Shown here: in pieces, positions 24,427 to 37,202 of the stretch | How the letters are laid out: each line of letters starts with the position of its first letter | How positions within the stretch are numbered: position 1 is the first letter of the stretch | Assembly: GCA_903842345.1 (NCBI GenBank) | Contig: CAIMLR010000047.1 | Location: forward strand, 248,001-312,000 | DNA: 64,000 nt | Direction of reading: 5' to 3' | Source: an uncultured Myxococcales bacterium | GTDB taxonomy: Bacteria; Myxococcota_A; UBA9042 | Program-made: the position numbers and the translations under genes | Notes under the pieces: model-generated | Database searches by the model: none | Seen by the model: only the letters and a program-made list of their open reading frames with translations | What the model was told of the DNA's origin: nothing

Positions 24427-25461
24427 TCACAGCGTGAAATACGGGTCCCAAATCTCCAGATACTGGCCCGCGTCGCCCAGATTCATCTGCCGCAGCGCGC
24501 CCATCGGCTCCTCGACAACCAACCGACCAGCCATCGCTTCCAGGCACGCCAGGACGCCGTCGTGCAGCGCGCTCAGTTGGTAGCCGCCCTCCAACACAAA
24601 GAGGATCCGGCCGTTGCAGAGCAAATCCGCGGCGTTGAGCAGATGTCCGGCGATGCGGGCAAAGCCTTCTGTGGAGACGTTCATGCCGCCCAGCGGATCG
24701 GTCGCGGCGATATCAAAACCCGCTGAAACCAAAATGATTTCAGGACGGAAGCGCTCCAGCATCCGGGCGATGAGCCCGCCGTAGATGGTGTCGTATTCGG
24801 CGTCGCCGTGGCCCGCAGCGAGCGGAATGTTGACCGTCCGACCCAGGCCCAGACCCTCGCCGATCTCCGTCGCCGCGCCTGAACCGGGATAGAGCGGCGC
24901 CTGATGCGTGGAGATGTAGAGCACGTGCGGATCGCCGATGAACGCCGCCTGCGTGCCGTTGCCATGGTGGACGTCAAAATCGACGATCGCCACGCGCCGC
25001 AGCCCCAGGACGTCGAGCGCGTGACGCGCCGCGAGCGCGACGTTGTTCAGGATACAAAAGCCCATGGCGCTGTCCGGCATCGCGTGATGGCCCGGCGGCC
25101 GTACGAGCGCGAACGCCCGCGGAATCGGCGATTGCAAGATGGACTCCGTCGCCGCCAACACGCTGCCCGCTGCGCGAATCGCCGCGCGCACGGAATGCGG
25201 CGAGGCAACCGTGTCGGCGTCCAAGTGCACGCTCTGTCCCTCGATCGCGTGCAAGAACGCAATGTAGTCGGCCGTGTGGACCCGCGTCAGTTCGAGGTCC
25301 GTCGCGTCGCGCGGGGCGATCAGCTCAGGTGCCAACGACTGGACCGCTGGAGAACCAACCAGTTGCAGCAAAGTCTGCAGGCGCTGCGGACTCTCAGGAT
25401 GGTCCAAGCCCGGATCGTGCTGCAGACCCAGTGTGTCGTAGACGAGAGAAATTGGCCGCAT
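24427..25461 (-). CDS. histone deacetylase-family (AcuC/HDAC-like) zinc hydrolase
   Basis: 344 residues of the class II HDAC / acetoin-utilisation family. Active-site motifs are all present: RPPGHHA (His125-His126), DFDVHHGNGT (Asp163 and His165 as zinc ligands), AGFDIAATDPLGG (third zinc ligand) and LEGGYQLSALHD. Family members remove acetyl groups from lysines, polyamines or small molecules; the substrate here is unknown. ATG 25461 has GGAGG nearby, so the longer frame to 25626 is not used. It diverges from the ThyX-like gene across 127 bases. The 3' end abuts the kinase gene. Confidence 0.92.
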   Translation of the reverse strand: MRPISLVYDTLGLQHDPGLDHPESPQRLQTLLQLVGSPAVQSLAPELIAPRDATDLELTRVHTADYIAFLHAIEGQSVHLDADTVASPHSVRAAIRAAGSVLAATESILQSPIPRAFALVRPPGHHAMPDSAMGFCILNNVALAARHALDVLGLRRVAIVDFDVHHGNGTQAAFIGDPHVLYISTHQAPLYPGSGAATEIGEGLGLGRTVNIPLAAGHGDAEYDTIYGGLIARMLERFRPEIILVSAGFDIAATDPLGGMNVSTEGFARIAGHLLNAADLLCNGRILFVLEGGYQLSALHDGVLACLEAMAGRLVVEEPMGALRQMNLGDAGQYLEIWDPYFTL

Positions 25462-25588
25462 GGGCACCTCCGCTACCAAAAGATTAGGCTCGCCCGGCCC
25501 GGTGCGCCAGCGACCGCAGGCACAGTTGCCGCGGACGGCCGACTGAGGCAACCTCACGGCAGAGGGCCGTCGCCCGGGTACGCATGCT

Positions 25589-27169
25589 GTGACGTCACCT
25601 TTTGAGACATCTTTGCCGCGCGTCACGCTGATCAGCGCGTTTGATCGGCCCTACGAACAAGCAGTTGCGGCGGCGCGAACGTGCTACTCCGGCGGCGGGA
25701 TCGTGACCGCCGATCAGGTCAGCGGCGTCGGTCAGAGCCTGGAGAAACAGGCGACGCGCGCCGAGCAGCGTGATCGCATCGCCCATTCGACGTTCAAGGC
25801 TGGCCACCACACGACGCTTCAGCACGGCCACGTCAGCTTTGGCCTGGACGCGATTTCTCGGCATTTTGTCTGGTCTTTTCTGCACAGTCACCCGTTCTAC
25901 AACAGTGAGCAGGTCAGCCAACGCTACGTGGAAGTGAAGCCCGATCGCGTGACAGTGCCCACCCTGCCCGAGCCGGCGGCGCGCATCTACCGCGCGTGCG
26001 TGGAGCGGCAAATGCGCGACTACCGCGACCTGATCGCGCTCCTGGAGCCGGTCGCAGCGGCGGAATACGGCCAGGTATTCCCTGCGCGCGGCAAGAACAT
26101 TGACCGCTGGCAGGGCGCGATCCACAAGCGCGCGCAGGAAGTGGCGCGTTACGTGCTGCCGGTCGCGACGCACACGTACATGGTGCACACGATCAGCGTG
26201 CTGACGCTTCTCCGTTACCGAAGGCTTTGTCAGGAGCCTGATACGCCTACGGAATCTCGTCTTGTTGTCGACGAAATGTGCCGCCTTCTGTTCGAGCGCG
26301 ACCCGCTGTTGCGCAAGCTCGAAGTCGAGCCGCTGGAGACGACGCAGGCCACGCCCTGGCTCAAAGCGCCGAGCGATCTGGCCGCGCACAAGCGGTTTAT
26401 CGCCGAGTTCGAGCAGGATCTCGCCGGCAAGACGGCCGCGCTCGTCGACCGTTTTGGCCACAACGAGCGGCGCGTCGCCGATGCCGTTCGCGAAGTGCTG
26501 GGGCTGCCGCGCGATGCGCTGTCGGACGCGGACGCGATCGCGCGCGCGCTGGACCCGGCGCAGAATCCGCTGCTGGGCGAGCCGATGAACACGACGGTGC
26601 ACCAGAAGCTGGGGCGATCGCTGCACGCGGCGCACTACGCCTTCAAGAAGCGGCTGTCCCACGCCGCGGACAGCCAGGATCAGCGCCACCGCCTCACGCC
26701 GGCTTCCCGGCCGACGGTGCACGCGTATCTGACGCCGGAGCCGGATTTTGTCACGCCGCGCTTGGTGCTGCACGCCGGCGGCGAGGCGGCGAGGCGCTAC
26801 CAGCAGTCGATGGCGGAGACGTGGCAGGCCATCGGCCAACTGCGCGATCTCGGTGTGTCGGCGGAATGGCAGGCGTACTTGCTGCCGAACGCGGTGACGA
26901 TTCGCTTCACGGAGACGATGGATCTCGCAGCGTTGCGCCACAAGCACGCGATGCGGCTGTGCTGGAATGCGCAGGAGGAGATTTGGCAGGCGAGCGTTGA
27001 CGAGGCCGATGCGATCGCCGCGGTGGAGCCGGAGATCGCCCAGTACCTGCTGCCGCCATGCGGAGTTCGCCATCGCGCGGGGCTGCGGCCGTATTGCCCT
27101 GAAGGGGACCGGTATTGCGGCACGCCTGTGTGGCAGCTGGAGCGCTCGGCGTGGCGCCGCGTGCTGTAG
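25589..27169 (+). CDS. long ThyX-family (FAD-dependent thymidylate synthase-like) protein with two related halves
   Basis: 526 residues, about twice a normal ThyX (220-280). The first half has family features: ARTCYSGG near the N-terminus, HTTLQHGHVSFGLDAISRHF, and the motif region HSHPFYNSEQVSQRY. That replaces the canonical RHRxxSxNxxSxRY, and only the terminal S-x-R-Y is kept. The second half (from about 385) again resembles ThyX: LLPNAVTIRFTETMDLAALR, then RLCWNAQEE. It may make dTMP using FAD, NADPH and methylenetetrahydrofolate, but the changed motif leaves activity open. GTG 25589 has no clear ribosome site; a TTG at 25613 is the alternative. Confidence 0.8.
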   Translation: MTSPFETSLPRVTLISAFDRPYEQAVAAARTCYSGGGIVTADQVSGVGQSLEKQATRAEQRDRIAHSTFKAGHHTTLQHGHVSFGLDAISRHFVWSFLHSHPFYNSEQVSQRYVEVKPDRVTVPTLPEPAARIYRACVERQMRDYRDLIALLEPVAAAEYGQVFPARGKNIDRWQGAIHKRAQEVARYVLPVATHTYMVHTISVLTLLRYRRLCQEPDTPTESRLVVDEMCRLLFERDPLLRKLEVEPLETTQATPWLKAPSDLAAHKRFIAEFEQDLAGKTAALVDRFGHNERRVADAVREVLGLPRDALSDADAIARALDPAQNPLLGEPMNTTVHQKLGRSLHAAHYAFKKRLSHAADSQDQRHRLTPASRPTVHAYLTPEPDFVTPRLVLHAGGEAARRYQQSMAETWQAIGQLRDLGVSAEWQAYLLPNAVTIRFTETMDLAALRHKHAMRLCWNAQEEIWQASVDEADAIAAVEPEIAQYLLPPCGVRHRAGLRPYCPEGDRYCGTPVWQLERSAWRRVL

Positions 27170-27375: not shown

Positions 27376-29199
27376 ATGGATACAGTCGGGAAGCGTGAAA
27401 ATCACTGGCAACGGCGACACTTCCTGACGCTGCTTGGCGCCGTTCCGCTGCTCGCGTCGCGCTCGGCGCTGGCCACGGCGCTGAACGACAGTCAGGTTGC
27501 GCGCGCTCAGAACGGCAGTGTGGAGACGCTTTCGACCGCGGAAATTCAAGGCGGCATGAAAGGTTACGGCCTGACGGTGGTGAAAGGCACCAAAGTTGAA
27601 CGCTTTGACATCGAAGTCATTGGCGTGCTGAAGAAGGCGATGCCGCAGCAGGACCTGATCCTGATCCGCTGCGCTGGCCTTGGCCTGGAGCACAGCGGCG
27701 TGGTCGCGGGCATGTCCGGTTCGCCGATCTTCGTCAACCATCCGCAATTGGGCGAACGCCTGATCGGCGCGCTGTCCTACGGTTTTCCGTTCAACAAGGA
27801 TCCGGTCGCGGGCGTCACGTCGATCCTGGACATGCTGCCGGAGTTCGACCGCAAGCTTGGGCCGATTCCGGTCAACCAGCAGATCACGGCGATGAACGCG
27901 CCGGCCGTCACGATTCCCGGACAGGGCGACATGCTGCCGGTGGCGTTGCCGTTGACCGTGGCGGGCGTGCATCCGGACGTGCTGGCGGCGATGCGCCCGC
28001 AGTGGGCGGAACTGGGCTTTGCCCACATCAACGCGGCGGCGGGATCGGGCGGGAGCACGACGGACAGCAAGCAGGTGGCGAAGCTGGAACCCGGCGGCTC
28101 GATCTCCGTCTGCCTGGCGCGGGGCGACATCTCCATGGCGGCGATCGGCACGGTGACATGGGTGCGCGGCGACCGCTTCATCGCTTTTGGCCATCCGTTC
28201 AAGGGGCTCGGCCAGCTGCACTTGCCAGTCGGTTCGGCGGATGTGCAGTGGATTCTCGCGTCGCAGCAGTCGTCGTTCAAGATGGCCAATGCGTTTGGCG
28301 ACGTTGGCGTGCTCGATCAGGACCGGCAGCCGGCCGTCGCTGGCCGCATCGGACCCAAGGCGCAGATGGTGCCGATCGACATCGCGCTCACCAACCGCGA
28401 TCGCGGCCAGAAGAGCGTGTGGCACGTGGAGGCGACGGACCAGCCGTCTTTCTTCCCGATGGTGCTCGCGATGGCGATGGGTACGGCGGTGCGCGTCTCA
28501 GAGCCGATCGCCGAGAATGCCGCGGTGACGATGACCGTGCGCTTTGACCTGCCCGACGGCCACGCGCCCGTCGAGTTCAGCGAGACGATGACGGGACTGC
28601 AGGGTTCGGCGTCGCTCTCCGACGTCAGCACGCTGGCGCAGAACGCGGCAAAGGCCATCGTGTTCAATGGCTTTGAGCGGCTGCGCGTGGAGCGCGTGGC
28701 GGCGACGCTCTCGCTGGCGGACGACCGCAACATCGCGTTCCTGGACAGCGCGCGGACCCAGTCTGAAGAGGTGGACGCCGAGACGCCGGTGACGATTCAA
28801 GTGACGCTGCAGCTGGCCAACGTGGGCCCCAAACGCGTGACGCTGACCCTGCCGCCGCTGCCGCGCGAGCTGATGGGCCAAACGGTGACGGTGCAAATCG
28901 GCTCAGAGAAGGCGATGGCGCCGGAACTCGCGGAGCCTGCCAACATCCACGACTATCTGAACGCGCTGCGCCGGCAGATCCCGCGCAACCGGCTCGCCGC
29001 GGTGCTGAACCTCCCCGAGCCGACCGTGCTGCTGCGCGGCGTCCGACTGACGCAGTTGCCGCTCGGCGTGCGCGACGAACTGGCCGGACATACCGCGACG
29101 TATCGCGCGGGCAAGGAGACGCTGCGTACGCACGTCGACACGCCGTGGACGCTCAACGGGACGCTCTCGCTCAAGCTGCGCGTGCGCCAGACGCCCTAA
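27376..29199 (+). CDS. Tat-exported SpoIVB/S55-family peptidase-like protein
   Basis: 607 residues. The N-terminus has a twin-arginine motif (QRRHFLTLLGAVPLLA, Arg13-Arg14), suggesting Tat export of a folded protein. Residues ~55-290 match the SpoIVB peptidase S55 domain: IQGGMKGYGLTVVKGT, then the nucleophile loop VAGMSGSPIFV (Ser114), and RFIAFGHPFKGLGQ, which may hold the catalytic His. The C-terminal 300 residues are beta-rich and unassigned. S55 peptidases are best known from sporulating Firmicutes. ATG 27376 has AGGACG close by. It starts a three-gene envelope operon, with 27 bases to the next gene. Confidence 0.83.
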   Translation: MDTVGKRENHWQRRHFLTLLGAVPLLASRSALATALNDSQVARAQNGSVETLSTAEIQGGMKGYGLTVVKGTKVERFDIEVIGVLKKAMPQQDLILIRCAGLGLEHSGVVAGMSGSPIFVNHPQLGERLIGALSYGFPFNKDPVAGVTSILDMLPEFDRKLGPIPVNQQITAMNAPAVTIPGQGDMLPVALPLTVAGVHPDVLAAMRPQWAELGFAHINAAAGSGGSTTDSKQVAKLEPGGSISVCLARGDISMAAIGTVTWVRGDRFIAFGHPFKGLGQLHLPVGSADVQWILASQQSSFKMANAFGDVGVLDQDRQPAVAGRIGPKAQMVPIDIALTNRDRGQKSVWHVEATDQPSFFPMVLAMAMGTAVRVSEPIAENAAVTMTVRFDLPDGHAPVEFSETMTGLQGSASLSDVSTLAQNAAKAIVFNGFERLRVERVAATLSLADDRNIAFLDSARTQSEEVDAETPVTIQVTLQLANVGPKRVTLTLPPLPRELMGQTVTVQIGSEKAMAPELAEPANIHDYLNALRRQIPRNRLAAVLNLPEPTVLLRGVRLTQLPLGVRDELAGHTATYRAGKETLRTHVDTPWTLNGTLSLKLRVRQTP

Positions 29200-29226
29200 A
29201 TCTCCCTCGCTTTTGCGGAGTTCCGG

Positions 29227-31218
29227 ATGACCCTGCCCCGATCCTTGACCAGTCTTCTGCTTGCCGGCGCCCTGCTGGCGCCATCCGCGCACGCCAGCCA
29301 GCCGACCGCTTGGCAGTTCGCCGACGACGCCGACTTCCGCCGCGGCAATCTCGATGGGCTTGCACTGCATCCGACGCTCGGCCTGACCGCAGCGCCAAAA
29401 CTGACGCGACTGGACGTCGATGCCGAGTTCATCCACTGCTGGCTGCGCGATGGCCAGCGGCTGTGGCTGGGCACGGGCTTGAACGGCAAGCTGTTCAAGG
29501 TCGAGAACGGCGCCGTGACGGAAGTCGCGAAGGTCGACGGGCCGCTCATCGCGTCGCTGGCCAGTGACGGCAAAGGCGGCGTCTACGCAGGCCTGGTCGG
29601 GACGGGTGAAATCCTGCACATCGACGCGGCCGGCAAGAAGGAGACGTTTGTCAAGTTGACAGATGTCCAGCATATCTGGGCGCTGCAACTGCGGGGCCAG
29701 GTGCTGTACGCGGGTACTGGGCCGGGCGGCAAGGTCTTTGCCGTCGACGTCGCGACGAAAACCGCGAAGTTGTTTGCTGAAACGACGGCGGACCACGTCC
29801 TGGCGCTGCTCTGGGACGGCGAAGCGCTGCTCGCGGGCACGTCTGATCCGCCGCTGCTGTTGCGCATCGACGGGGAGAAGTCCGTGCGCGCCCTGGCGTC
29901 GTTTCCCGGCGTGGAAGTCCGCAGCCTGGCGCGGAGCGGCAAGACGATCTACGCGGTCGTGAACGGCGGGCAGACCGCGGTGCCATTGGCCTCGATGAAG
30001 CCGACGCCGGAGCGTCCGGGGACGGGCACGGTGGCCAAAGCGCCGGGCGCGAACAAGGGCGCGAAGGACACGGCGGCCAAGGGCAAAGGCGCGGTGTGGA
30101 AGCGGACGCCAGATGGCATCGTGTCGCGCGTGCTGGTGTCGCCGGAAGGGATGCTGAGCGAGGTTGGGATCGTCGGCAAGCAGGTCGTTGCGGGCGCGGC
30201 GCGCGGCGGGCGCGTGGTGCTGGGCGATGAGATGGGCGACGTGCAGAGCCTGTTTGACGTGAAAGAAGAAGAGATCCTCGGGGTGGAAGTCGGCGCCAAG
30301 GGCGTGCAGACGCTGTTTACCGGCAAGGCGGCAGCGGTGTACGTCGTGGGCGAGCAGCCGGCGGACGCGGTCTTTACCACGGACGTGCTGCAGGAGACCG
30401 GCACCGCGCAGTGGGGCCGCATTGACGCGATCGGCGAAGGGACGCTGGACGTCGAGACGCGCTCCGGCTTCTCCGAACTGCCCAACGACACGTGGAGCCC
30501 CTGGCAGCCATTGCGCGCGGTACAGGGCCAGAGCGGCCAAAGCCAGAGCCCGCCGGCCAACGCGCTGCAGGTCCGCGTGAAGCTCGCGAGCGCGGGGGCG
30601 CGGCTGCAGGAGCTGAAAATCTTCCGTCAGGTGGCCAATCGCGCGCCGACGATGGCCAAGATCGACGCCACGCTGAACAAAGGCAAAGGCACCGTGACGC
30701 TGGCGTGGACGGCGGAGGACGTGGACGGCGATACGCTGGGCTACGTGGTGCAATACCGCCCCCGCGGCAGCAAGCAGTGGTTGGTGCTGCACGATCGGCT
30801 GTTCGACAAGAAAACGATGGACCTGAGCCCGACGGACATGCCCGATGGCTGGTACGAAGTGCGCGTGGAAGCGACGGATCTGCCGAGCAACGGCCCCAAG
30901 AACGCGAAGGCGGTGGCGCGGATCTCCAAGCCCTTCCTTGTCGATCGCGGCCGGCCAGAAGTCATCGCGGAGCTGAAAGGCCGGTCGGTGCACGGGATGG
31001 CGATGGACGCGATTTCCCGCATCACGCGCGTGGACATCTCGGTCGACGGCGAGCCGCCCATGCTCGCGGCGGCGGTCGACGGCGTGTTTGACCAGTCCTC
31101 CGAGGCGTTTGAGCTGGACCTGCCGGAGAGCGTCGTGAAGGGCAACCACACCCTGCTGCTGCAGGTCACGGATGAAGCCGGCAACACGGGCGCGTTGCGG
31201 CTGCCGATCGGCCAATGA
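29227..31218 (+). CDS. secreted beta-propeller / FnIII-like protein
   Basis: 663 residues, signal peptide MTLPRSLTSLLLAGALLAPS cleaved near AHA. Residues ~30-240 and 300-400 read as propeller blades with a recurring 'G..L.AGT..G.L..V' pattern (LWLGTGLNGKLFKV, VYAGLVGTGEILHI, LYAGTGPGGKVFAV). A Lys/Ala/Gly linker at about 260-290 interrupts them. Residues ~470-660 hold a fibronectin III-like segment (RAPTMAKIDATLNK, VTLAWTAEDVDGD, YVVQYRPRG). No catalytic residues are recognised. GCGGAG lies 6 bases before the ATG. It probably binds the S55-like protein or another envelope partner. Confidence 0.78.
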   Translation: MTLPRSLTSLLLAGALLAPSAHASQPTAWQFADDADFRRGNLDGLALHPTLGLTAAPKLTRLDVDAEFIHCWLRDGQRLWLGTGLNGKLFKVENGAVTEVAKVDGPLIASLASDGKGGVYAGLVGTGEILHIDAAGKKETFVKLTDVQHIWALQLRGQVLYAGTGPGGKVFAVDVATKTAKLFAETTADHVLALLWDGEALLAGTSDPPLLLRIDGEKSVRALASFPGVEVRSLARSGKTIYAVVNGGQTAVPLASMKPTPERPGTGTVAKAPGANKGAKDTAAKGKGAVWKRTPDGIVSRVLVSPEGMLSEVGIVGKQVVAGAARGGRVVLGDEMGDVQSLFDVKEEEILGVEVGAKGVQTLFTGKAAAVYVVGEQPADAVFTTDVLQETGTAQWGRIDAIGEGTLDVETRSGFSELPNDTWSPWQPLRAVQGQSGQSQSPPANALQVRVKLASAGARLQELKIFRQVANRAPTMAKIDATLNKGKGTVTLAWTAEDVDGDTLGYVVQYRPRGSKQWLVLHDRLFDKKTMDLSPTDMPDGWYEVRVEATDLPSNGPKNAKAVARISKPFLVDRGRPEVIAELKGRSVHGMAMDAISRITRVDISVDGEPPMLAAAVDGVFDQSSEAFELDLPESVVKGNHTLLLQVTDEAGNTGALRLPIGQ

Positions 31219-31247
31219 AAACCCAACGACTGACGCGGGAGCCGCAC

Positions 31248-32279
31248 ATGAAGCGACTGGATGGGATGAATCGGCCGTTGGCCTGTGCTGCGCTGCTGTT
31301 GGCGATGGCTGGATGCAAGAAAGAGACGCCGCCTGCGACCAAGGCAGCGCCCGCCGCGGATGCGCCTGAAGCCGCCGCGCCTGCAGCCGGTTTGCCCGCA
31401 GCGGCGACGCCGTCACCGTTGCCCGCGTTGGTTACCGTTACCGCTGAGCCCGCGGAGGCCCCGCTGACCCAGCGGCCGCGCGTCTCCGTGGACATGCGCA
31501 GTGGCCCGCAGTTGACCGCGGGCTTGCCGACGGTCGGCGAAGCGGCCTCGTTTCGGATGACGCTGCGCGACGCGGATGGCCAATTCGTCAGCAACCTCGA
31601 TCCGCTGCTCGGCGGCAAACTGCTCTTCGTCGTCGCGCGCGCGGATCTGGGCTGGACGACCGTGCTGCGCGCCGATGAAATGTCCGACAAGGTCCGCGGG
31701 ACGCACGATTTCCGGATGATCTTCCCGTTCGCCGGCATCTACCGCACGTGGTTCCTGTTCAGCTACGGCGGCAAGACCTACAGCGAGGAAATGGCGTTCT
31801 CGGTCGAGGGCAAGCCGTTCGTCGGCAAGGAACTGCCTGAATCCACGGTGCAATGGCAGGACGACAAGGGGATGGCGGCGCGCCTGAAGATCGAGCCAGG
31901 GGCGCCGCAGACTTGCCAGCCGTTTCAGCTCGCGACGGCCTGGACGCGCAAGGACAAGCCGCTGCGCATGACGGCCGAACCGGATGCGCCGACGACGTGG
32001 TACATCGCGATCGAGGGTGGACTGGGTGAGATCGTCACGAGCGCGCAGGAGAAGCAGCCGGTTGACCCGCCCAAGGGCGCGACGGAATCGGTGGCAAGCA
32101 AGATGGGCGGCGACCTCGGGACGCTCGCGGCGCTGAAGGTGGCCCGACCTGGTCGCTACCGCGTACTGGCCATTGCGACGCCGCCCGGCGCCAAGGCGGG
32201 CCAGAAGGACGCCACGGTTGTCGCGTCGTTTGCGATCACGGTCCAAGGCGAGAAGCATGAAGGCGGCTGCCCGAAGTAG
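31248..32279 (+). CDS. lipoprotein with YtkA/FixH-like domain
   Basis: 343 residues from ATG 31248, which has GGGAG 6 bases upstream. An upstream ATG at 31215 overlaps the previous stop (ATGA) but has no ribosome site. Lipobox LAMAGC (Cys23) is followed by an Ala/Pro linker. Residues ~95-190 (LDPLLGGKLLFVVARADLGW, then HDFRMIFPFAGIYRTWFLF) resemble the YtkA/FixH-like beta domain found in metal-handling envelope proteins. A second, diverged beta domain may follow. It is the third gene of the S55 operon, so it may anchor that complex at a membrane (inference). Confidence 0.75.
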   Translation: MKRLDGMNRPLACAALLLAMAGCKKETPPATKAAPAADAPEAAAPAAGLPAAATPSPLPALVTVTAEPAEAPLTQRPRVSVDMRSGPQLTAGLPTVGEAASFRMTLRDADGQFVSNLDPLLGGKLLFVVARADLGWTTVLRADEMSDKVRGTHDFRMIFPFAGIYRTWFLFSYGGKTYSEEMAFSVEGKPFVGKELPESTVQWQDDKGMAARLKIEPGAPQTCQPFQLATAWTRKDKPLRMTAEPDAPTTWYIAIEGGLGEIVTSAQEKQPVDPPKGATESVASKMGGDLGTLAALKVARPGRYRVLAIATPPGAKAGQKDATVVASFAITVQGEKHEGGCPK

Positions 32280-32598: not shown

Positions 32599-33228
32599 AT
32601 GGGTTTGCCGATCGACTTCTGGTTCGACTTCTCCTGCCCCTACGCCTATCTCGCGTCCACGCAGCGCCACCAGTTGGCGCGCGAGGCGCAGTCTGTCGTC
32701 ACGCCCCAGCCGTTCCTGCTCGGCGGCGTGTTCCGGGCGATAGGTCAGGCGCAGAACCTCTCGACGACGCTCTCCCCGCCCAAGGCGCGCCACAACCGCC
32801 TCGACGTCATCCGTTGGGCCGCGTGGTTTGACGTGCCGTTGGCAACGCCGTTCCGCCATCCCAACCGTCCGGTGGAAGCCCTGCGGGCGCTGCTCGCGAC
32901 GCCGCTGGAACATTGGGATGCGGTCATCGACGGCTTTTACCGGCTCTATTGGGTCGAGTCGCGCGACATCAGCGACGTCAACGTCTTGCGCCAGCGGCTC
33001 ATGGAGCTGAAGCTGGACGCCGACGCCATCCTGACATTGGCGCAGACCGACGCGATCAAGGACGAACTGCGGCAACGCACGGATCGCGCGATCGCGGCGG
33101 GCGTTTTTGGCGCACCGGCTTTCGTCGTCGGTGATCAGCTTTTTTGGGGCCAGGATCGCCTGCCCTTCGTCGTCCGCGCGGCTCAGGGCTGGCAGCCCGA
33201 ATTGGGTCGCGAAACTTTCACTTTCTGA
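32599..33228 (+). CDS. 2-hydroxychromene-2-carboxylate isomerase-like protein (DsbA/kappa-GST family), copy 1
   Basis: 209 residues with the DsbA-like thioredoxin fold. The N-terminal signature FWFDFSCPYAYLAS holds the family's Ser-x-Pro-Tyr site, with Cys between Ser and Pro. GAPAFVVGDQLFWGQDRLPF is the C-terminal family signature. Classic members isomerise 2-hydroxychromene-2-carboxylate in naphthalene breakdown using glutathione; many genomic copies have unknown substrates. No other aromatic-degradation genes are nearby. It is followed 12 bases later by a paralogue, so the two are probably co-expressed. Confidence 0.88.
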   Translation: MGLPIDFWFDFSCPYAYLASTQRHQLAREAQSVVTPQPFLLGGVFRAIGQAQNLSTTLSPPKARHNRLDVIRWAAWFDVPLATPFRHPNRPVEALRALLATPLEHWDAVIDGFYRLYWVESRDISDVNVLRQRLMELKLDADAILTLAQTDAIKDELRQRTDRAIAAGVFGAPAFVVGDQLFWGQDRLPFVVRAAQGWQPELGRETFTF

Positions 33229-33240
33229 ACCGGAGTCATC

Positions 33241-33849
33241 ATGAAACGCGTTGAATACTTTTATGATGTCTCATCGCCGTACGCGTATCTCGCCCACGAT
33301 GAGATCGGCAAGGTCGCGACGGCCCATGGCGCGGAAGTCATCTGGCGGCCCTTCTTCCTCGGCGGCCTGTTCAAGAGCCTGCAGGCGGAGATCGTGCCGT
33401 TCACCAATGGCTCCACGCAGAAACAGGACATCCTCAAGAAGGACATGTACCGCTGGGCGGAGGTGCGCGGCATCCCGTTCAACTGGCCGACGACGTTTCC
33501 GATGATGACGATCCGCCCCATGCGCGTGCTTGTGCAGCTGGAAGGCGAGATGCAGATCGCGGTGGCGCGCCACTTGTTCCGCGCGTACTGGGCGCACGAC
33601 GAGAACATCGGCGACCCGCTGGTGCTCCACCAGTTGCTGGAAACCCAGGGGCTGGACGCGGAGGTGCTGCTGGCCGCGTGCGACAGGCCCGAGGTCAAGC
33701 AGAAGCTCGTGGATGCCACGGCGGAAGCGCTGCAGCGCGGCGCGTGCGGTGCACCGACGTTCTTCGTGGGCAACTATCTCGTGTGGGGCCAGGACCGGCT
33801 GGATTTCGTTGGCCGCCTGCTGGACGGCTGGCAGCCGAAGCACGGCTAG
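33241..33849 (+). CDS. 2-hydroxychromene-2-carboxylate isomerase-like protein (DsbA/kappa-GST family), copy 2
   Basis: 202 residues, a paralogue of the preceding gene. The N-terminal active-site motif is canonical here: FYDVSSPYAYLAHDE. GGLFKSL and the C-terminal GAPTFFVGNYLVWGQDRLDF complete the family pattern. The two proteins keep the same order of motifs but differ strongly elsewhere, so the duplication is old; they may form a heterodimer. The 78 base gap to the convergent apaG gene holds only a short GGCGC-A-GCGCC palindrome (33879-33889). Confidence 0.88.
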   Translation: MKRVEYFYDVSSPYAYLAHDEIGKVATAHGAEVIWRPFFLGGLFKSLQAEIVPFTNGSTQKQDILKKDMYRWAEVRGIPFNWPTTFPMMTIRPMRVLVQLEGEMQIAVARHLFRAYWAHDENIGDPLVLHQLLETQGLDAEVLLAACDRPEVKQKLVDATAEALQRGACGAPTFFVGNYLVWGQDRLDFVGRLLDGWQPKHG

Positions 33850-34349: not shown

Positions 34350-37202
34350 TCAGTGAGCTTGGACAGCCAGCGGCTTCTTGGCAACGACCGGCGCATTTTT
34401 GCCAGCGGCCACAGGGGCTTTCGCCGTCACACCCAGCTTGGCCGGACCGGCGGGCTTGGCGGGGACGACGGCCGACTTGCCAACCGCGGCCGGCTTGGCC
34501 ACAGGCTTCGGCGCGACGGCGGGCTTGGCGCCAATGACCGGCTTGGCGGCGACGACTGGCTTCGCGCCGGGCGTAGGTTTGCCCGCGACGGCCGCTTTGG
34601 CGGCAATCGGCTTCGCAGCCACGCCGGCGGGCTTGGCGGTGGGCGCGAGCGGCTTCACCGCCGGTTTGGCAGCCGCAACGGCGGGCTTGGCCGTCGGGGC
34701 AGTCGGCTTCGCGGCGACAAGGGGCTTGGGCAGTGCGGGCGCCTTGGCCGCAACGACGGGCTTGGTGCCGACGACGGGCTTGGCCAACGCCTGCGCTGGC
34801 TTGGCCGGCGTCGGTGCGCCCTTGGCAACGGGGACGGCCGGCTTGGCCGCGCCCACAACTTTGGGAGCGACAGCCGACGCAAGCTTCGGCGCGACGACGA
34901 CCGGCTTTCCGGTGAGGGCCGCCACCTTGGGCGCGGGCGCTGCAGCCTTGGCGACGGCGACCGGGGCCTTGACCACCGCAACGGCCGGCTTCTGGTTGGC
35001 CGGCAACTTCACGGCTTTGGCATTCGCCGCGTTGACGGGCGCCACCGGTGCCTTGGCCAGTGCGCTGGGCGCTTTCGCGGGAACCACGGCCGGCTTGGCC
35101 GCGGCAACGACCGGCTTGGGCACAATCGGCGTCGCCTTGGCAGCGTTGGCCGCCGTCGGCGTCGCGGCATCGGCAGGCACCGCGCGCTTCGGCTTCACCG
35201 GAAGGTTGGGCATGCCCGCCACGAGGTAGCCCAGCTTGCTCGCCGCATCAATGGCACCGCGCGCCTCGGCCAGCGTCACCGGCTTGGCCGGCTTGCCCGG
35301 CTTGTCGCCGTGTTCCGGCACGCCCGGACGCTCCACGTGTTCCACCGGCCGACCTTCCCAGGCCACCCGCTCGGCGTTGTGCGCGACCGCCGCTTCCGCA
35401 TGCGCCGCCTCCATTTCTTTCTCCGCCGGCGGCACGGGCATGTCCGGCATCACGCCGCCCGCCACTTTGCGCACCGGAATCGCCGGCGCTTCTTGCGCCG
35501 CCACGACGTCCTCATGCGAGCCCGCGTCTTTCTCCGTGAGCACGGTCTTGCGCACCTGCGGCTTGGCCACATCGATCTTCGGCGGGGCAGCATGCGGCCC
35601 CGAACGGGCTACAGCATCGGTGCGCGTCGGCGCCGGCTCATCGTCCCACAGGCTCGCGACGCGCAGATCCTGGGCTTCCGGCATCTTGAGCTGCGCGCCC
35701 ATCAACTCCTGCGTCACCGCAAACAGCAGCAGCGCCGCACACGACCACGCCACCGCGCTCGCGAGCGCCAGCCCCGGCTGCTCCTGCACCGGCTGCGGCG
35801 TCCGCTTGGCCTTGGGCTTTGGCGGCGGCGGCGCGACCTCCAGCTCCGGCTCATCGTCCATCCGCCGCGGCGAGGCCAGGCTGCCCGGCGTCAGCGCTTC
35901 CACGTGCGCGCCTTTGGCGACCTTCACCGGCACGTTGTCCGGCGCGTAGGACTTGCCCATCGCCGCTTCCGCCGGCATCAGGTCCTTGCGCACATGCACG
36001 CGCTCGACCTTGGGCCCCATGTCCCGCACAACCGTCACCGGCCGCATCTGGACGTCGCGCTTGGCGTTCCAATCGACCTTGCTGTCGCCGCGTTCATGCC
36101 CCAACCGCGACACGCGCTGATTGGCGTCCAGCTCCACGCGCGCACCGGTCGGCACCACCTTGGGCGGCAACGCGTTGGCCTGCATGACCGCGCCCGGCTG
36201 GATGCGATTGGACGCCGCCGCATCTTCCAGGATCAGCCGTTGATTCTTCTCTTTGCCCTTGGACCGCCGGGCATCTTCCATGTCCAGCAGCTTCACGAGC
36301 GCATCGGGCTTGTAGTGCGCGCGGGACGCCTTCGCCAACTGCTCCATCGCCGCGAGCATCGCGTCGGCCGTCTGGAAGCGCATCTCCGGCACGTTCGCCA
36401 GGCACCGCTTCAGCCACGTCTTCACATCTTCCGGCAGGCGCTCGAACTTGGGGCCATACTCAAAATCGCCGCGGATCGCCCGCATGTGCAGGACTTCCGT
36501 CGTGCCTGGGCCAAAAAGCGGCTGTCCCGTCAGCATCTCGTACGCGACCGCGCCCATCGCGTACAGGTCCGCCCGGCCGTCCACGCGCTCGCCCGACGCC
36601 TGCTCCGGCGCCATGTAGTGCATTTTGCCTTTGATCGTCCCGGTCCGCGTCCGATCGCTCCGGTGATCGCCGCGCGCGATGCCAAAGTCCGTCAGCTTGA
36701 TCAGCGGCTCCCGCGAAATCAGCAGGTTCTGCGGCGACACGTCGCGGTGGACGATGCCCTGCGAACGGTTCTTGTTGCCCTTGTAGTCGTGCACATAGCG
36801 CAGCGCGACGAGCGATTGCCGCAGGATCTCGAACGCCACCGGCGACGGGACCTGGATGTGGTTCAGGCGGTGCGCCAGCAGGACCTGCGCCAGATCGCGG
36901 CCGTCGATGTACTCCATCGCGAGGTAGTGCATTCCGTCGCACTCGCCGACTTCAAACACGTGAACGACGTTGGGATGGTCCAAATCGCGGACGATGCGGC
37001 CTTCATCCTTGAACATGCGGACGAATTCCGGATTCTCGGCCAGATGGTCGTGGAGGATTTTGATGGCGATCGGCCGGCCTTCCAGTTCATCACCGGGCTT
37101 GGCGTCGGCGCGAAAAACCGTCGCCATGCCGCCGGACGCGATCTTGGCGATGAGCGTGTAACGGCCAAAATCACGCGGACTGTCGAGCTTGCCGGAAATC
37201 AT
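34350..37202 (-). CDS. membrane Ser/Thr protein kinase with Ala/Lys/Pro-rich tail
   Basis: 950 residues. The kinase domain (about 14-290) has Gly loop IASGGMATVF, Lys48 in IAIKIL, catalytic HRDVSPQNLL (Asp154), the HRDVSPQN form frequent in myxobacterial kinases, TDFGIAR (Asp172) and MHYMAPEQ. A charged linker leads to one transmembrane helix at about 477-497 (LALASAVAWSCAALLLFAVT). The part beyond it is outside the cytoplasm. After an acidic/basic stretch, the last ~285 residues are repetitive Ala/Lys/Pro/Val (units such as KPVVAAKP) almost free of acidic residues. A long opposite-strand frame here is a composition shadow. Confidence 0.93.
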   Translation of the reverse strand: MISGKLDSPRDFGRYTLIAKIASGGMATVFRADAKPGDELEGRPIAIKILHDHLAENPEFVRMFKDEGRIVRDLDHPNVVHVFEVGECDGMHYLAMEYIDGRDLAQVLLAHRLNHIQVPSPVAFEILRQSLVALRYVHDYKGNKNRSQGIVHRDVSPQNLLISREPLIKLTDFGIARGDHRSDRTRTGTIKGKMHYMAPEQASGERVDGRADLYAMGAVAYEMLTGQPLFGPGTTEVLHMRAIRGDFEYGPKFERLPEDVKTWLKRCLANVPEMRFQTADAMLAAMEQLAKASRAHYKPDALVKLLDMEDARRSKGKEKNQRLILEDAAASNRIQPGAVMQANALPPKVVPTGARVELDANQRVSRLGHERGDSKVDWNAKRDVQMRPVTVVRDMGPKVERVHVRKDLMPAEAAMGKSYAPDNVPVKVAKGAHVEALTPGSLASPRRMDDEPELEVAPPPPKPKAKRTPQPVQEQPGLALASAVAWSCAALLLFAVTQELMGAQLKMPEAQDLRVASLWDDEPAPTRTDAVARSGPHAAPPKIDVAKPQVRKTVLTEKDAGSHEDVVAAQEAPAIPVRKVAGGVMPDMPVPPAEKEMEAAHAEAAVAHNAERVAWEGRPVEHVERPGVPEHGDKPGKPAKPVTLAEARGAIDAASKLGYLVAGMPNLPVKPKRAVPADAATPTAANAAKATPIVPKPVVAAAKPAVVPAKAPSALAKAPVAPVNAANAKAVKLPANQKPAVAVVKAPVAVAKAAAPAPKVAALTGKPVVVAPKLASAVAPKVVGAAKPAVPVAKGAPTPAKPAQALAKPVVGTKPVVAAKAPALPKPLVAAKPTAPTAKPAVAAAKPAVKPLAPTAKPAGVAAKPIAAKAAVAGKPTPGAKPVVAAKPVIGAKPAVAPKPVAKPAAVGKSAVVPAKPAGPAKLGVTAKAPVAAGKNAPVVAKKPLAVQAH

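Follow-up and report, generated by a model that had tools for sequence, protein, structure and literature searches.

The window, the 64,000-nucleotide stretch of DNA analysed here, belongs to a host assembly of 5.85 Mb whose nearest public relatives are labelled uncultured Myxococcales and come from lake samples. Three open reading frames lie on the same strand, separated by gaps of 27 bp (gene 1/gene 2) and 29 bp (gene 2/gene 3). Their coordinates and spacing agree with the first-pass annotation of this DNA. A ThyX gene (25589-27169) lies upstream of gene 1 and two DsbA-domain genes lie downstream of the operon; these neighbours are taken as unrelated to the gene 1/gene 2 pair. The features discussed below are:

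27376-29199, + strand: gene 1, predicted exported, circularly permuted S55-type serine peptidase, 607 aa (PF05580, mapping on 9lnf, AF2)
27376-27480, + strand: N-terminal twin-arginine-type signal of gene 1, MDTVGKRENHWQRRHFLTLLGAVPLLASRSALA (sequence; pattern scan of relatives)
27508-27831, + strand: serine half-domain, residues ~45-152, GMSGSP with Ser114 (PF05580 96-201 of 210; six predicted strands)
27715-27717, + strand: Ser114 codon, candidate nucleophile (invariance)
28084-28398, + strand: histidine half-domain, residues ~237-341, GIGTVTW...AFGHPF, His273 and Asp316 (rotation tests; 110/110 invariance)
28192-28194, + strand: His273 codon, candidate general base (invariance)
28321-28323, + strand: Asp316 codon, candidate third triad residue, His+43 (invariance; predicted strand topology)
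28399-29196, + strand: C-terminal beta-rich domain(s) of gene 1, without a family match (AF2 secondary structure)
29227-31218, + strand: gene 2, exported WD40-type beta-propeller with Ig/FN3-type tail, 663 aa (AF2, Foldseek, Pfam, linkage)
31248-32279, + strand: gene 3, lineage-specific lipoprotein without a Pfam family, 343 aa (lipobox LAMAGC)

The N-terminus of gene 1 contains a QRRHFLTLLGA-type twin-arginine motif and a hydrophobic core (QRRHFLTLLGAVPLLASRSALA), and the protein is a predicted Tat substrate, as first proposed. This feature is local to the genus and a few others. A crude pattern scan found Tat-type signals in about 11 of 94 relatives, and most relatives have Sec-type signals.

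The initial hint of an S55 peptidase, based on the GMSGSP loop with Ser114, held up in the profile search. Gene 1 matched PF05580 with 37.3 bits (gathering cut-off 25), and all 74 of 74 relatives matched the same family at E<=0.001. The match in gene 1 covers residues 35-146, corresponding to positions 96-201 only of the 210-position profile. This serine half corresponds to the C-terminal part of the SpoIVB S55 domain, and the histidine half to the N-terminal part. A stretch resembling the SpoIVB histidine half, SMAAIGTVTWVRGDRFIAFGHPF, is found about 150 residues after GMSGSP in gene 1. The catalytic histidine, whose loss would have spoken against the first-pass reading, is present as His273, 159 residues downstream of Ser114. 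The order in SpoIVB is the opposite, with His236 before Ser378. That the histidine comes after the serine in gene 1, with the half-domains swapped, had been overlooked at first. The serine half comes first in every relative examined.

The swapped order was also seen when a profile of 74 relatives (A2) was aligned to the SpoIVB structure 9lnf. Two stretches aligned in reversed order, with profile positions 208-230 falling on chain residues 118-142 and positions 17-93 on residues 232-308. The rotated profile scored 48.5 bits against 9lnf and the unrotated one 37.6 bits, an inexact comparison because the former contains only 18 of the relatives and the latter 74. When the halves of the window protein were rotated, the PF05580 match extended over positions 12-201 of 210 with 39.6 bits, compared with 32.4 bits when the serine half was used by itself. 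Five other members gained 6.7, 7.0, 6.9, 3.9 and 18.8 bits on rotation over controls with a shuffled histidine block, and in the strongest case (18.8 bits) shuffling this block removed the full-length coverage of the profile. Rotation thus raised the score against the curated Pfam profile in six of six family members, by 4-19 bits. Against a single SpoIVB sequence, which agrees with 9lnf except for the serine-loop changes of the crystallised mutant, the histidine half alone gave a weak 7.9 bits and the rotated profile 54.1 bits; each value was reached by one in 100 column shuffles. Because this shuffle test gives support of only about 1 in 100, the Pfam-profile control weighs more. Judged from these sequence profiles, gene 1 encodes a circularly permuted S55/SpoIVB domain with the serine half first.

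Distinct relatives keep Ser114, His273 and Asp316 in 110 of 110 cases, and the GTxT...GH stretch is invariant in the family as well. Since the invariance of Ser114 is biased in a set collected by pattern search, it was rechecked on relatives found by HMM. The 110 distinct rows include these HMM-found relatives, which were not selected on GMSGSP. The spacing between His273 and Asp316 is 43 residues; in chymotrypsin it is 45. The AF2 model of gene 1 has a pLDDT of 90.4 and a pTM of 0.88. Its first barrel has six strands with Ser114 between strands 3 and 4, and in the second barrel His273 follows strand 3 and Asp316 ends strand 5. His, Asp and Ser occupy the same strand positions in the chymotrypsin topology. 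With this confident AF2 model, strand order and residue positions fit a predicted chymotrypsin arrangement in which the barrels are exchanged. In Foldseek the best match was SpoIVB (probability 1.00; 111 columns aligned, one barrel), and viral 3C-type proteases and HtrA-type chains came next. Since Foldseek aligns in sequence order, only one barrel at a time can be matched, as swapped barrels predict.

Gene 2 had been described as a propeller protein, and its AF2 model (pLDDT 90.5, pTM 0.72) bears this out. Foldseek matched the model to WD40 propellers, designed eight-bladed propellers and the BT4673 receptor ectodomain with probability 1.00. The tail gave weak, sub-threshold fn3 and Big_13 matches in Pfam. 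To follow the linkage of the two genes, 80 loci were picked by gene 1 alone, and 77 of them had enough downstream DNA to be scored. Gene 2 lies directly downstream of gene 1 in 72 of the 77, where the stop codon of the one and the start codon of the other often overlap; in three more the two genes are fused in one open reading frame (L076:6794-10624, L091:6788-10618 and L115:2436-5474). In the other two (L071 and L094), gene 2 is unlinked and located elsewhere in the genome. The neighbourhood search therefore confirmed the conserved linkage of gene 1 and the propeller gene. The gene 1 loci are distributed over more than 10 phylum-level labels, including Myxococcota, Planctomycetota, Acidobacteria, Verrucomicrobia, Latescibacterota, Gemmatimonadota, Hydrogenedentes, Sumerlaeota, Armatimonadetes and Wallbacteria.

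Co-occurrence, in counts that are not phylogenetically independent, gave a similar picture: gene 1 was present in 42 of 142 Myxococcota genomes and a strong gene 2 in the identical 42, and gene 1 was present in 22 of 98 Planctomycetota genomes, 21 of which also had gene 2. In genome G256, which carries gene 1, a strong gene 2 is missing. The 42 Myxococcota pairs comprise 38 adjacent ones (one counted despite a split match), three unlinked ones and one cut by contig ends. Because the pair persists when unlinked and is naturally fused in some genomes, we argue that the two proteins share a function. Gene 2 is the near-obligate partner of gene 1. Clustering of the flanking genes revealed no third gene recurring across phyla and no substrate candidate; the neighbours are lineage-local, with common ABC transporters and kinases among them. 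One planctomycete (G232, contigs C25 and C89) has two paralogous complete pairs, each copy with its own partner. In about a dozen Brocadiales genomes (loci L079, L081, L083, L085 and others), divergently oriented RpiB and Sua5 genes are located upstream of the pair, and a LolA-like lipoprotein gene is found further upstream.

Gene 3 contains the lipobox LAMAGC, in agreement with its description as a lipid-anchored protein. The label YtkA-like did not survive: gene 3 and four relatives gave no YtkA family match at E<=10, and no match to any Pfam family even at E=10, barring one chance PKD match. Without a Pfam family, the label denotes only a resemblance. The search turned up homologues in the genus and, with greater divergence, in just two further genera of the family (L032/L033). 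With this distribution gene 3, which had been counted as a component of the system, was rejected as a core component. It is an accessory gene outside the conserved gene 1/gene 2 module.

Gene 1 shares with SpoIVB (MEROPS S55, PF05580; B. subtilis, 9lnf) the GMSGSP loop, the GIGT...GH loop and export, and its half-domains, once rotated, span nearly the full PF05580 profile. It differs in that the halves are swapped, with the histidine downstream and not upstream of the serine, in that it is paired with a propeller protein, and in that it occurs in phyla without endospores. It also differs in having the invariant Asp316, whose counterpart in the alignment with B. subtilis SpoIVB (9lnf) is Asn290, and in lacking Asp363. 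Asn290 is thus a candidate position for the third catalytic residue of SpoIVB. A Pfam scan (E<=0.1) found no N-terminal PDZ domain in gene 1, and the mature protein has only about 80 residues before the GMSGSP loop. The SpoIVB equivalog model TIGR02860 gave 33.2 bits, against a cut-off of 305.25. Because the order of the halves, the PDZ domain and the equivalog score all fail to agree with SpoIVB, we regard gene 1 as S55-derived but not as a SpoIVB member.

Among chymotrypsin-like proteases of the PA clan (HtrA, 3C-like), the resemblance lies in the predicted double six-stranded barrel, the Ser-His-Asp set, the His-Asp spacing and the Foldseek matches to 3C and HtrA-type chains. The linear order is Ser, His, Asp in gene 1, whereas it is His, Asp, Ser in the PA clan. 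Tricorn and proteases of the DPP4/POP type likewise join a serine protease to a beta-propeller with a possible part in gating or recognising the substrate, but their catalytic folds are unrelated (S41 and S9), and gene 2 usually is a separate secreted protein. Gene 2 resembles WD40 propellers and the ectodomain of the BT4673 receptor (3ott) in its propeller fold; unlike BT4673, it lacks both a kinase and a membrane receptor part, and its C-terminal tail is different.

We propose, with a probability of about 0.72, that the products of genes 1 and 2 work in the envelope as a module of two proteins, a barrel-swapped serine endopeptidase and a propeller subunit for recognition or activation. Gene 1 would be exported by the Tat pathway in this genus and by Sec elsewhere. 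It would fold as a chymotrypsin-like two-barrel serine endopeptidase with its barrels in the opposite order to SpoIVB/S55, the Ser114 barrel first and the His273/Asp316 barrel second, and the two barrels probably form one joint active site. The proteolytic activity of gene 1 is what we infer from these features. Gene 2, an exported propeller with an Ig/FN3 tail, would most likely dock on gene 1 and may supply activation or the recognition or presentation of substrate, by analogy with the PDZ domain of SpoIVB or the propellers of tricorn and DPP4. A role of the pair in maturation or signalling is possible. The proposal of an envelope proteolytic system had been made in the first-pass annotation, and fold, invariant triad, linkage, co-occurrence and fusions give good support to the part of it that concerns a serine peptidase related to S55 and its propeller partner. 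The accompanying analogy to SpoIVB in development fared poorly, as discussed below. It is rather likely, though we hold this less firmly, that the module represents a widespread envelope protease, in which a swapped-barrel endopeptidase of the PA-clan type needs a dedicated secreted propeller and travels with it as a unit or fusion in more than 10 phyla.

Other explanations of the pair are less likely than a protease with a recognition partner. Gene 1 may be a permuted binding scaffold or pseudoprotease of the S55 fold, with gene 2 as a structural envelope partner. This would agree with the variability of residues 100-103, which correspond to the Asp363 region of SpoIVB and in which the Asp is not conserved in the family, and with residue 134, the equivalent of Thr393, which is Ala in 65, Ser in 41 and Gly in 4 of 110 relatives. 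But Asp363 is about 24 A away from His236 in the SpoIVB crystal and is probably not catalytic, and Thr393 has been proposed in its place (PMC12502668). The triad residues of gene 1 are invariant in 110 of 110 relatives at about 30% identity, which is rarely so in pseudoenzymes, and we consider the scaffold unlikely. It is quite unlikely that the protease mainly cleaves its neighbour gene 2, or itself, and that the two genes constitute a self-contained cassette for maturation or secretion. Such a cassette would account for the near-obligate pairing, the operon spacing and the fusions, and self-cleavage occurs in SpoIVB; yet the propeller of gene 2 is intact and followed by long C-terminal Ig/FN3 domains, no conserved processing site was noticed, and the fused forms must be cut apart or remain joined.

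We also considered whether the permutation is an artefact, the histidine stretch being an unrelated beta domain in which a GH motif occurs by chance. The weak score of the histidine block alone would fit this idea, which is nevertheless very improbable: the rotation gain was seen in six of six members with the Pfam profile and again with the PDB profile, the predicted strand topology puts His and Asp in chymotrypsin positions, and both Asp316 and the GTxT...GH stretch are invariant. Hardly credible is a SpoIVB-like developmental signalling role, in which an intramembrane protease would be switched on by gene 1 when cells starve or form fruiting bodies. Homology to SpoIVB and the myxobacterial relatives speak for it. 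Against it, gene 1 is permuted, lacks a PDZ domain and scores far under the equivalog cut-off; it is absent from 100 of the 142 Myxococcota genomes sampled; and it occurs in many phyla without comparable development, among them anammox Planctomycetota, Verrucomicrobia and Acidobacteria, which do not form Bacillus-type endospores.

S55 proteins annotated as SpoIVB have already been recorded in Acidobacteria (PMC8841776). The open-access literature that we searched (subscription papers lay outside the search) held no description of a permuted S55 domain or of the gene 1/gene 2 pairing. Since the SpoIVB Pfam model detects the serine half only, the true architecture and the partner of such proteins go unseen. 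If our proposal of a swapped-barrel protease with a propeller partner is true, gene 1 is a relative of chymotrypsin-like proteases whose barrels are swapped in nature, and it would be useful for understanding how the chymotrypsin-like fold arose from a duplicated barrel. The proposal also puts a name to an envelope system of two genes that anammox bacteria share with other Planctomycetota, Acidobacteria, Verrucomicrobia and Myxococcota, and the alignment of the invariant Asp316 with Asn290 is relevant to the dispute over the third catalytic residue of SpoIVB.

PADLOC gave no anti-phage defence match, and a defence role for the locus was dropped. A search with the Sorangium protein found no plasmid-borne copies of gene 1. 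In the surroundings of the operon, the ThyX gene encodes 526 aa with two Thy1 stretches in Pfam and looks like a flavin-dependent thymidylate synthase that has been duplicated or is of double length. Its start overlaps head to head with that of a class II histone-deacetylase-like gene (24427-25626, - strand), an arrangement that is conserved within the genus. The two DsbA-domain genes (32599-33849) are a tandem, HCCA-isomerase-like pair that is kept in two near relatives. Further on, a serine/threonine kinase gene (34350-37202) encodes a very long repetitive tail rich in Ala, Lys and Pro.
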